From positions 2,210,217-2,274,216 of the forward strand of contig OX639992.1 in NCBI GenBank assembly GCA_951828515.1: a stretch of 64,000 bases of DNA. Direction: 5' to 3'. Source of the DNA: an uncultured Poribacteria bacterium. GTDB lineage: Bacteria; Poribacteria; WGA-4E; WGA-3G. The notes below the pieces were generated by a model that was not told the DNA's origin, did not search any database, and saw nothing but the letters and a program-made list of their open reading frames with translations. Both the position numbers and the translations under genes were made by a program. Of the stretch, positions 28,117 through 57,815 are shown piece by piece (within the stretch, counting starts at the first letter, position 1; the number at the start of each line of letters is the position of its first letter).

Positions 28117-29127
28117 ATGTTTCAAACGCGGCTGAATGCAAGCGTCTGGGCTGTTATCCTCATAACAGCAATTTTGATTCCAGCAGCTTCAGGGGAGGAA
28201 GCAGTGACAACGCCAAATACACTAAAAGTGGGCATGGTCGCCCCCGATTTCACACTCAAAGATGAAGAAGGCATTGAGCAGAATCTCAGCGACTATTTAG
28301 GGAAAAAGAATGTTGTTCTCGCTTTCTATCCAAAAGATTTTACAGGTGGATGAACGACCGAACTTTGCTCGCTCCGTGATAATTTGAGCGAGATAGAAGC
28401 ATCCGACAGTGTCCTTTTCGGGGTCAGTGTTGACGATGTTGAATCGCATAAACGGTTTAGAACAGAACAGAAATTCGGATTTTCACTCTTAGCCGACACC
28501 GAATTTGAGGTGAGCAACCAGTATAGCGGTATCATTGACGGCTTCAACGCCTCAAAACGGACAACCTTCATCATTGATAAAGCGGGATACATCCGTGCCA
28601 TTGATACGGATGTCAATGTCAAAACGCATGGTGAAGATGTCGCCGCACTGCTTAAGGAAGTTCTACCCAAGATAGCGGTTGGACAATCCGCTCCAGATTT
28701 TATTGCAACCGATGGAACCGGCAAAATGCACCAATTAAGCGAATTGCATCAGGAAAAGAACGTCGTCTTAGCATTCTACCCGCGCGATTTTGGGCGTGGC
28801 TGAACGGCTCAAGTTTGCTCACTCCGTGATGAGTCGAGTAGTTTTGAGAAATACGATGCACAGATTTTTGGGATTACGTCGAACGATACGGATTCTCACC
28901 AAAAATTTTCGGAAGAAAATCAGTTGAATTTTCCGCTTTTGGTAGACACCGGACGCAATCTCGCCCTCCTCTTTGGTGCGACGAACGCCCCAGATGGAAG
29001 GATTCAACGGTTAGCTGTTATTATTGATAAAACAGGGAAGATTCTTGAAATTGATAAAGAGGTCAACGCCAGCACACACGGTGCGGACTTAGTTGGTTTC
29101 TTCAAAACTTTGGAAACATCAGATTAA
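28117..29127 (+). CDS. Exported tandem peroxiredoxin with two in-frame UGA (selenocysteine) codons
   Basis: One frame runs from an ATG (GGAGG 9 nt upstream) to TAA at 29125, interrupted only by TGA at 28351-28353 (residue 79) and 28801-28803 (residue 229). Read through, it gives a 336-residue protein: a signal peptide (1-25) and two BCP/PrxQ-like AhpC-TSA domains (about 35-180 and 190-336). In both, the UGA falls exactly at the peroxidatic Cys: [19 protein letters not shown] and [19 protein letters not shown]. The resolving Cys five residues later is kept in both. A hairpin starts 14 nt after each UGA. Protein similarity continues across both codons, so frame decay is unlikely. Selenocysteine is an inference; no sel genes are in the window. 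Ordinary gene callers would split it in three. Confidence 0.85.
28368..28392 (+). promoter_or_regulatory. Candidate bacterial SECIS hairpin 1
   Basis: CTCGCTC and GAGCGAG form a 7-bp perfect stem with an 11-nt loop containing GUG, starting 14 nt after the UGA at 28351. Confidence 0.6.
28818..28838 (+). promoter_or_regulatory. Candidate bacterial SECIS hairpin 2
   Basis: CTCACTC pairs with GAGTCGAG (one bulged C) around the 6-nt loop CGTGAT, at the same 14-nt distance from the UGA at 28801. The G-to-A change in the 5' arm relative to hairpin 1 is matched by T in the 3' arm. Confidence 0.6.
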
Positions 29128-29130
29128 TTG

Positions 29131-55620: not shown

Positions 55621-56763
55621 CTAATCAGGAGTTTGTTCGGACGGTTCACTTTTTTCTGCCTCTAACTGTGTCTTCTGCCAACCGTAATCGACATCGCCGT
55701 CATAAAATTTGTCCGGATGCTCCACCGCCCAAATTTGTTTATGGATAATCCAGTTTTGGGGGTCTAATGCCAAAGCCTTCCGCCATTCTGCCATCGCTTC
55801 CTCCTCTTTACCAACCCCTAACAAGACCAGACCAAGTTGGAAACGCGCTGTAGCTTCAGTAGTAGTTTGTGCATCCAGTGCATCTAAGGGTTTCACATCA
55901 CGAAGCAATTTCACATTATAATCGGGATCCGACACCCACTTTTCAAGCATCGCGAGGGTTTCTTGATTCGCAACATTGATGTTGAAAGGTCCTTTTACTA
56001 ACCGTCCTGCCTCATCAATCATAATACCATAGGGAATAGCTTTAAGGTCATAGCGAGCGCCGAATGTATTCTGTGAATCAACGAGCGTGACAAAATCGGC
56101 GTTTGCCGTATCATGCCAAGGACGCACGACGGATACACCTTGTGCATCGAGTGCAATGGAGACAAAGTTTAACTTTTCTCGGTGTTTGGCATAAAACTTC
56201 TGCCAGCCTGGCAGTTGTTCACGACATCCTCACCACGAACCCCAAACATAGAGGAGTGTCTTTTTCCCTCTGAAATCTCGTAAGTTTCTTGGTGTTCCTT
56301 CAAGGTCGGGAAGCGTGAATTCGGGTGCAAGGTGCATGGGTTGAAAAACCTCTAACCGGTTTGCCGAGACTTCATAGATTTCAAAGCCGAAGGGTTCCGT
56401 AACTCGCGCCGGTTGGACATAAGTTACGCCATCCATATCAACAACACCCGTATCTTGGAATTCGAGAGGCACACATAGTTCTGATGTCACATCACCACAG
56501 AGAACCGCCATCTTCTCACCTTCCGGGTACTCCACTTTTAAGCCGAGCTGTTTGGCGAAAGGTTCCAAAGGCACGAACCATTTACCATCTTCAAGAATAG
56601 GAGAGGCAGTGAATGTGACGCGTCGGGCATCTATGGTAATTTGTAAATCCTCTTTATTCATATTCCGCTCCTCGGTCACCCCTACTCGTAAACCTACTGC
56701 ACAGAACAGACCTACTGCCAACATTATACCCCCCAGACTGCGCATTGATATTGCGAGAATCAT
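55621..56763 (-). CDS. Exported thioredoxin-like protein with in-frame UGA (selenocysteine) in the active site
   Basis: The frame runs from the ATG at 56763 to TAG-type stop at 55621, broken only by TGA at 56232-56230 (residue 178). Read through, it is 380 residues: a signal/anchor helix (about 8-27), a copper-amine-oxidase-N-like stalk (about 40-135), a redoxin/TlpA-like domain from FTLPDLEGTPRNLRDFRGKK (about 148) and TPR-like helices at the end. The active site reads Y-V-W-G-S-W-U-G-C-R-E-Q-L-P, i.e. U-x-C. Frame, length and the domain (PYGIMIDEAGRLV) continue normally after the UGA. CTGCCA-GGC-TGGCAG, 15 nt after the UGA, is a good SECIS candidate. It overlaps the cytochrome c gene by 4 nt, so it is co-translated. 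Confidence 0.85.
56200..56214 (-). promoter_or_regulatory. Candidate bacterial SECIS hairpin 3
   Basis: Minus-strand CTGCCA-GGC-TGGCAG: 6 bp perfect stem, loop beginning GG, starting 15 nt after the UGA at 56230. G in the first loop bases fits the known bacterial SECIS pattern. Confidence 0.7.
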
Positions 56764-57128
56764 TGTGTCGTTTTCTCCCTGTGTTCCGAATCGTAGATCA
56801 GAAATTTAATGATCTTTTCCGCAGTTTTTGGAGTGAGCCCTGACCCCGGTTTCCGCATCATCTTATAGACATATTCCCGCCATTCCTCTGCGGTAAAAGT
56901 AGAATTAATTGGGCGTGCGACGGTATGACATCGGCTACATTTACGGGTAAAAAGCTCGTAAGTCTCCTGCATTTCAGGTGAATAGGTGGTAACATCAATA
57001 AAGTTGGGACCCTTATCCGCCGGATAGGTTTTAGGTGCCGCACGCGGGGCGCGTAAGGCGTAAATCATCCCAATCCCAACGAGGAGGATAACACCCAAGA
57101 CAGTAATCCAAACTATAGGTTGTTTCAT
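56760..57128 (-). CDS. Membrane-anchored monoheme cytochrome c
   Basis: A 122-residue protein: one N-terminal helix (VWITVLGVILLVGIGMIYAL), then one heme site CSRCH (about residue 65) and a likely Met ligand in KMMRKPGSGLTP (about 90). It faces the periplasm. Its stop overlaps the start of the selenocysteine thioredoxin-like gene (ATGA), so it may pass electrons to or from that protein. Confidence 0.85.
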   Translation of the reverse strand: MKQPIVWITVLGVILLVGIGMIYALRAPRAAPKTYPADKGPNFIDVTTYSPEMQETYELFTRKCSRCHTVARPINSTFTAEEWREYVYKMMRKPGSGLTPKTAEKIIKFLIYDSEHREKTTQ

Positions 57129-57156: not shown

Positions 57157-57534
57157 TCACCTGAGTGAGTGCAGCGCGTTAATGCTTACATCACCGTCGT
57201 TTATAACATCCAATATCACGCGACTTCCATAAAGCAAAGACATTCCAATTAATGGTCCAGCGTCTGATTCTAACGCAGTCACCTCGCGTTCTTCACCATC
57301 CCACAATACCTTCGCAAAATAAATATCAAAGTCCACTTCATTCCCATCACCGAGGAAAGCTGGCTGGTTGCCAATGCGTTGGAGTGTGAGGCGGCTTATC
57401 AAATCACTTGGTAGTACCAAAAATCCATAGAAGCCAGTATCAATGATAGCCTCAATTTTCTCTCGCTGGTCTGATCCGACAACTTCCATTTCAATGACAG
57501 CATCTAGATTGCCTGTAACTTTTCCGGTCATCAT
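57157..57534 (-). CDS. Clan AA aspartic protease-like protein
   Basis: A 125-residue retropepsin-like protein. The catalytic IDTGFYGFLVLP is near residue 30, and D-A-G-P-L-I-G-M-S-L-L near 90 is the second motif. Such proteins are often paired with a small partner; here the 94-codon gene upstream overlaps it by 4 nt (ATGA). Dimers may be active. The substrate is unknown. Confidence 0.88.
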   Translation of the reverse strand: MMTGKVTGNLDAVIEMEVVGSDQREKIEAIIDTGFYGFLVLPSDLISRLTLQRIGNQPAFLGDGNEVDFDIYFAKVLWDGEEREVTALESDAGPLIGMSLLYGSRVILDVINDGDVSINALHSLR

Positions 57535-57800
57535 GACGTGTTCGCCTTAAAGTTAAAACCGATTCCATAGACTGGCCCAACCCCGATTCGTAAACTGTAA
57601 ATGATCGACTCAGGACGCTTGGCAAGCAGATACTTTATGGCTTTCAAATCATTATCGCCAATTTCATAGTCGCCTGTTTGAATGTCAATGGCCACAATCT
57701 TTCCTTTGTGTTGTGGTTCAACTTTGTGCCGAACTTGCTGCGAATAAATCTCTTTCCCGCGTGCAGCGATAGTTCCAGGCGGATAATCCGAATATGGCAT
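57531..57800 (-). CDS. Small protein paired with the aspartic protease
   Basis: About 89 residues from the ATG at 57800 (MPYSDYPPGTIAARGKEIY; GAGGAG 8 nt upstream). V-A-I-D-I-Q-T-G-D-Y-E-I-G-D-N-D and L-L-x-x-R-P-E-S-I-I-Y-x-L-R-I-G are visible. I do not know a named family. The ATGA overlap with the protease gene suggests that the two act together, perhaps in a toxin/antitoxin-like or adaptor manner. Confidence 0.75.
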   Translation of the reverse strand: MPYSDYPPGTIAARGKEIYSQQVRHKVEPQHKGKIVAIDIQTGDYEIGDNDLKAIKYLLAKRPESIIYSLRIGVGPVYGIGFNFKANTS

Positions 57801-57815
57801 AACAGTTCTCCTCAA

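Follow-up and report, generated by a model that had tools for sequence, protein, structure and literature searches.

Does the in-frame TGA in a redoxin gene of an uncultured Poribacteria bacterium end translation or encode selenocysteine (Sec), and what might the resulting protein do? The gene (55621..56763, minus strand) was analyzed within a window of 64,000 nucleotides, the whole stretch of DNA under study, which comes from a 5.85-Mb single-contig genome whose relatives are Candidatus Poribacteria MAGs. The frame begins with an ATG at 56763, encodes 380 residues, ends with a TAG at 55621, and is homologous across 49 non-redundant sequences. From N- to C-terminus, the gene encodes a signal/TM segment, a stalk domain, a Sec redoxin domain, a TPR region, and a conserved C-terminal tail. 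Only one TGA lies in this frame (56232-56230, minus strand), at codon 178, where it would encode Sec178 of a W-U-G-C-R motif. When the frame was re-read, both the TGA position and the hairpin letters given in the first-pass annotation proved exact, and the read-through of about 200 residues claimed there was found to be 202 residues, open up to the TAG. Under the standard code, records of such genes would list a fragment of 177 residues and a separate piece downstream of it.

Decoding of the in-frame TGA

Codon 178 is TGA in all 49 homologs, which extend down to 42% identity and include an Armatimonadota MAG (Armatimonadia). The TGA is always followed by x-Cys, the partner Cys180 being present in 49/49, and some relatives carry U-A-C instead of U-G-C. 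The median pairwise dN/dS was 0.178 for the part preceding the TGA and 0.098 for the part following it, with 0.118 for residues 260-371; purifying selection is thus stronger on the codons after the TGA than on those before it, and because dN/dS is this low downstream, that part is translated. Searches of the read-through protein with Pfam HMMs, which had been proposed as a check, found domains on both sides of the TGA and across it, and the redoxin/TlpA domain suggested from the letters was recovered as an AhpC-TSA match spanning the codon (residues 145-255, 59.5 bits). Two objections anticipated by the first-pass annotation fell away: no homolog ending at the TGA was found among the homologs, and a sequencing error is excluded because independent assemblies all carry the TGA. 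It is scarcely credible that translation truly stops at the TGA, or that the gene is split or decayed and what follows is a remnant or an independently re-initiated ORF; within the reach of sequence evidence, these readings are already refuted. TGA does act as a normal stop codon at other genes of this genome, including the cytochrome gene upstream, and the standard-code ORF listing gives a GTG at 56127 as the first start codon after the TGA, but re-initiation there is disfavored because the intervening codons 179-212 hold many invariant residues (including C180, R181, L184, W187, Q188, and Y191), and the low downstream dN/dS, the unchanged TGA, and a co-varying SECIS also speak against it.

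The hairpin CTGCCA-GGC-TGGCAG (56200..56214, minus strand), 15 nt long and beginning 15 nt after the TGA, had been proposed as a bacterial SECIS element. Its form and position, with a G in the loop and a conserved core of five base pairs, are those of the bacterial SECIS. Among 182 near-invariant positions at which codon constraint was judged, 48/49 homologs have CTG for Leu184, a codon that makes up only 13% of the family's pooled Leu codons, and 48/49 have CAG for Gln188, against a pooled usage of 39%. The sole exception (L049) alters both stem codons together (TTG ... CAA) with the base pair retained, and an identical double change occurs in a second lineage (L133), so that a compensatory C-G to U-A swap is found in two lineages. 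The five core pairs form in all of 24 sequences, and the sixth, loop-adjacent pair does not always do so. The folding-energy check gave no such support: with z values of -0.4 to -1.2, the free energy of the hairpin did not reach significance and would not on its own have revealed the element, and the SECIS is demonstrated here by codon constraint and covariation in place of energy. An Rfam search of the window gave no match.

The genome also encodes the required machinery, namely selB (347 bits), a tRNA-Sec with anticodon TCA directly after selB (78 bits, also called by ARAGORN), and selD (359 bits), which itself contains an in-frame TGA. SelB and tRNA-Sec would decode the UGA at codon 178 under the direction of the SECIS at 56214-56200. 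A tRNA-Sec scored over threshold in 75 of the 85 Poribacteria genomes, whether the gene was present or absent, so that its occurrence says nothing about that of the gene. In seven gene-carrying MAGs (G024, G030, G033, G034, G065, G068, and G071) none was found above the Rfam threshold, which probably reflects incomplete assemblies or missing contigs. The pattern of TGA conservation, selection, and stem codons lies far beyond chance, and together with selB, tRNA-Sec, and selD it confirms, on comparative sequence grounds, a genuine selenoprotein whose stop codon would be used for selenocysteine insertion.

Other TGA-containing redoxins were noticed. The gene had been counted as the second exported selenoprotein of the window; the export signal is supported from the sequence, and another Sec gene is indeed present at 28117-29127 (plus strand), encoding a signal peptide and then a tandem pair of Bcp/PrxQ-type peroxiredoxin domains, each of which has an in-frame TGA as its peroxidatic codon (U79, U229); the gene occupies precisely the gap before the ORF that starts at 29128. 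Elsewhere in the same genome (C1, about 614.3-615.2 kb; L098 374-1294, minus strand), a TGA redoxin with T-U-G-D-C-R (UxxC) is apparently exported. A related Poribacteria genome (G049) carries a W-U-A-G-C-R (UxxC) redoxin (L180) with one TGA, in which TPR and a further C-terminal domain follow the redoxin in a single 492-residue frame, and a genome of another phylum (G316) carries a small redoxin (L179), F-W-A-T-W-U-P-S-C-R (UxxC), also with an in-frame TGA.

Distribution and architecture of the protein

At an E-value of 1e-20, the gene was matched in 61 of the 85 Poribacteria genomes. Every full-length Poribacteria match covering the active site carries the TGA; where the TGA is missing, the match is a bare redoxin domain or a split-off piece. 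The gene is also present in class- or phylum-level relatives (G050, G054, G056, G057, G058, and G061), in three Armatimonadota genomes, and in one further carrier among roughly 300 genomes of other phyla (G369), which has a UGC redoxin, TPR-like helices, and the TGA. Homologs bearing Cys at the Sec position, whose alignment had been proposed as a check, were sought among the matches listed from the 85 Poribacteria genomes, a sample of about 200 Armatimonadota genomes, and the roughly 300 genomes of other phyla: those lacking the TGA covered only the bare redoxin domain or were split-off end pieces, and no full-length Cys form was found. A plasmid search returned only generic TlpA/ResA domains, and a viral structure library returned nothing useful. 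In the literature searched, which covered few subscription papers, no link between Poribacteria and selenoproteins was found, and the word 'selenocysteine' occurs once each in two sponge metagenome papers; this near-silence is weak evidence of novelty.

The stalk domain (residues about 41-140; 56344..56643, minus strand) matches Cu_amine_oxidN1 (PF07833, 29.7 bits) at residues 44-89. The redoxin/TlpA domain (residues 145-257; 55993..56331, minus strand) matches AhpC-TSA/Redoxin, and the C-terminal part (residues 302-370; 55654..55860, minus strand) combines a weak TPR match at residues 305-337 with the tail N-W-I-I-H-K-Q-I-W-A-V-E-H-P. The AlphaFold2 model, in which Cys replaces Sec (mean pLDDT 77.7, pTM 0.70), predicts a low-confidence N-terminus, a beta-rich stalk at 41-140, a thioredoxin-fold domain, and then helices. 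Structure comparison demonstrates a ResA fold for the redoxin domain, the nearest structure being Bacillus ResA (1st9; Z 18.1, rmsd 2.0 A over 132 residues), followed by CcmG, TlpA, and peroxiredoxins.

Conservation is demonstrable in each of these parts. In the stalk, Cys89 and Cys97 (56473..56499, minus strand) are invariant in all 14 sequences of alignment A2 and lie on what are predicted to be adjacent strands (85-90 and 97-101); the pair recurs in every distant stalk-bearing member, with varying spacing between the two residues. In the redoxin domain, the cis-Pro equivalent P244 is invariant, as is Gln183 (49/49), which was aligned by hand with Glu80 of ResA. Conservation is highest in the tail, where many residues are invariant across Poribacteria and Armatimonadota; even an Armatimonadota member that lacks the stalk (L161) still has this tail.

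The neighboring cytochrome c gene and the proposed function

Immediately upstream lies a gene that, judged by its sequence, encodes a membrane-anchored monoheme c-type cytochrome (C-S-R-C-H; 56760..57128, minus strand) and shares 4 bp (ATGA) with the start of the selenoprotein gene. Within the main Poribacteria clade, every locus whose two gene ends were readable automatically shows this overlap (37/37); the five remaining loci (L040, L041, L044, L046, and L049) have a mis-set start or no cytochrome. The coupling of the two genes is a demonstrated feature of this clade, in which the selenoprotein gene appears to be translationally coupled to the cytochrome c gene. A transketolase gene lies further upstream, and Yip1-domain genes and a gene for a DUF4175 protein lie downstream. 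Between the cytochrome and the transketolase are two short ORFs (57157-57534 and 57531-57815, minus strand) that overlap by 4 bp, have no Pfam match, and occur in only some relatives; by eye, one resembles a retropepsin-like aspartic protease (D-T-G-F-Y-G).

ResA and CcmG keep the heme-binding cysteines of apocytochrome reduced. The best explanation overall, which we consider fairly probable, is that the protein is a Sec-coded extracytoplasmic ResA-like thiol-disulfide reductase with the coupled cytochrome as its partner. We infer the export, the Se-S chemistry, the partner, and the direction of electron flow as follows. The protein would be exported and, outside the cytoplasmic membrane, either stay anchored or be released; there Sec178 would attack a disulfide and Cys180 would resolve the intermediate as an Se-S bond. 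The Sec-Gly-Cys center would then presumably alternate between the reduced selenol/thiol state and the Se-S bond, with re-reduction by a DsbD/CcdA-type donor. By analogy with ResA and CcmG, the client would most likely be the upstream coupled cytochrome, for instance through its apocytochrome heme-binding cysteines being kept reduced. Counted in favor of the cytochrome reading are ResA as the closest solved structure, the perfect ATGA overlap, a ccmE-ccmF-ccmH cluster in the genome without a ccmG between ccmF and ccmH (these genes were named by length and sequence, except for one CcmF-type profile match), and a DsbD/CcdA-type reductant protein in the genome. Counted against it are Gln183 at the place of ResA Glu80 and several CxxC redoxins elsewhere in the genome, Cys-type proteins that could serve cytochrome c maturation instead. 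Taken as a claim of its own, a cytochrome-serving role, read from sequence, is a tentative and nearly balanced proposal.

The adjacent cytochrome is absent in distant members (Poribacteria families f5, f7, and f10, and Armatimonadota), so a partnership with it cannot hold for the family as a whole. A broader role apart from the cytochrome is a possibility to be taken seriously, if a lesser one: general extracytoplasmic reduction or isomerization of disulfides or oxidized substrates, in which the stalk Cys pair would serve as internal relay and a client would bind to the TPR/KQIW tail. Such a role would fit the retention of the Cys pair and tail in every member with a stalk, whether or not the cytochrome is present, and the differing neighbor genes of the distant members, but it leaves the perfect coupling (37/37) in the main Poribacteria clade, which argues for a function shared with the cytochrome there. 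A peroxiredoxin-type role, in which the protein would act as a selenoperoxidase to remove peroxides outside the membrane and might itself be reduced via the cytochrome, is improbable; AhpC-TSA is the best Pfam match and UGC proteins carry the name 'Prx-like' (PMC2398784), but the T/S-x-x-C peroxidatic signature is absent, residue 175 being Gly in 48/49, and the fold is closer to ResA than to peroxiredoxins (Z about 15-16). Returning to the ResA-like reductase, a further and quite speculative extension, which we regard as unlikely, is that the stalk Cys pair, the Sec-Gly-Cys center, and the coupled heme c might form one dedicated extracytoplasmic relay in which the selenenylsulfide and the cytochrome exchange electrons, beyond help with assembly.

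Comparison with known systems

ResA, CcmG, and TlpA are thiol-disulfide oxidoreductases with a Cys-x-x-Cys site that act in the assembly of cytochrome c and of oxidases. The protein shares with them its fold, the cis-Pro equivalent P244, a probable extracytoplasmic location, and a link to cytochrome c; it differs in its Sec-x-Cys motif, which is one residue shorter, in having Gln183 in place of the conserved Glu80 of ResA, and in its additional stalk and TPR/tail domains.

The best NCBIfam match is NF041054, 'ResA-like WAxxUGC motif-containing protein' (WAxxUGC_long), at 145.4 bits (E 2.6e-42). Both share a UGC in a ResA-like domain and the order of stalk, redoxin, TPR, and tail. The first-pass annotation had described a stalk before the redoxin domain and TPR helices after it as a new combination; the layout held, with the TPR weak, but since NF041054 covers the same layout the combination is not new. 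The protein aligns with the 354-position model in two stretches, residues 44-93 falling outside the best matched one, whereas relatives L135, L138, and L160 span positions 8-333. It also differs in having W-G-S-W rather than W-A-S-W before the Sec and, within its own clade, in the coupling with a cytochrome c gene. The cut-off of this equivalog model is 300 bits, which none of the 12 genomes checked passes; because the protein does not reach this curated value, it was filed as a divergent sister of the NF041054 family.

The U-G-C motif, which had been taken as unusual, is not new: UGC-containing Prx-like selenoproteins were described in 2008 from Global Ocean Sampling data, with 46 Sec sequences (PMC2398784), and the UGC Prx-like/TlpA group appears in reviews of 2022 and 2026 (PMC9312934, PMC13188914). 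The protein belongs to this known kind, with which it shares the pfam00578/cd02966 domain, Sec-Gly-Cys, and a bacterial SECIS, the group being one of aquatic bacteria (PMC2398784). The parts of these sources that were consulted give no Poribacteria, operon partner, stalk, or Cys pair (PMC2398784, PMC9312934, PMC13188914). New here are the cytochrome c coupling, the invariant stalk Cys pair, and the finding of no full-length Cys version. UGC redoxin selenoproteins, which have had no known function since their description in 2008, thereby gain a testable partner in the coupled cytochrome c, and the group gains a phylum-wide distribution in the sponge-symbiont Poribacteria, where no full-length Cys form was found, together with a conserved stalk Cys pair.
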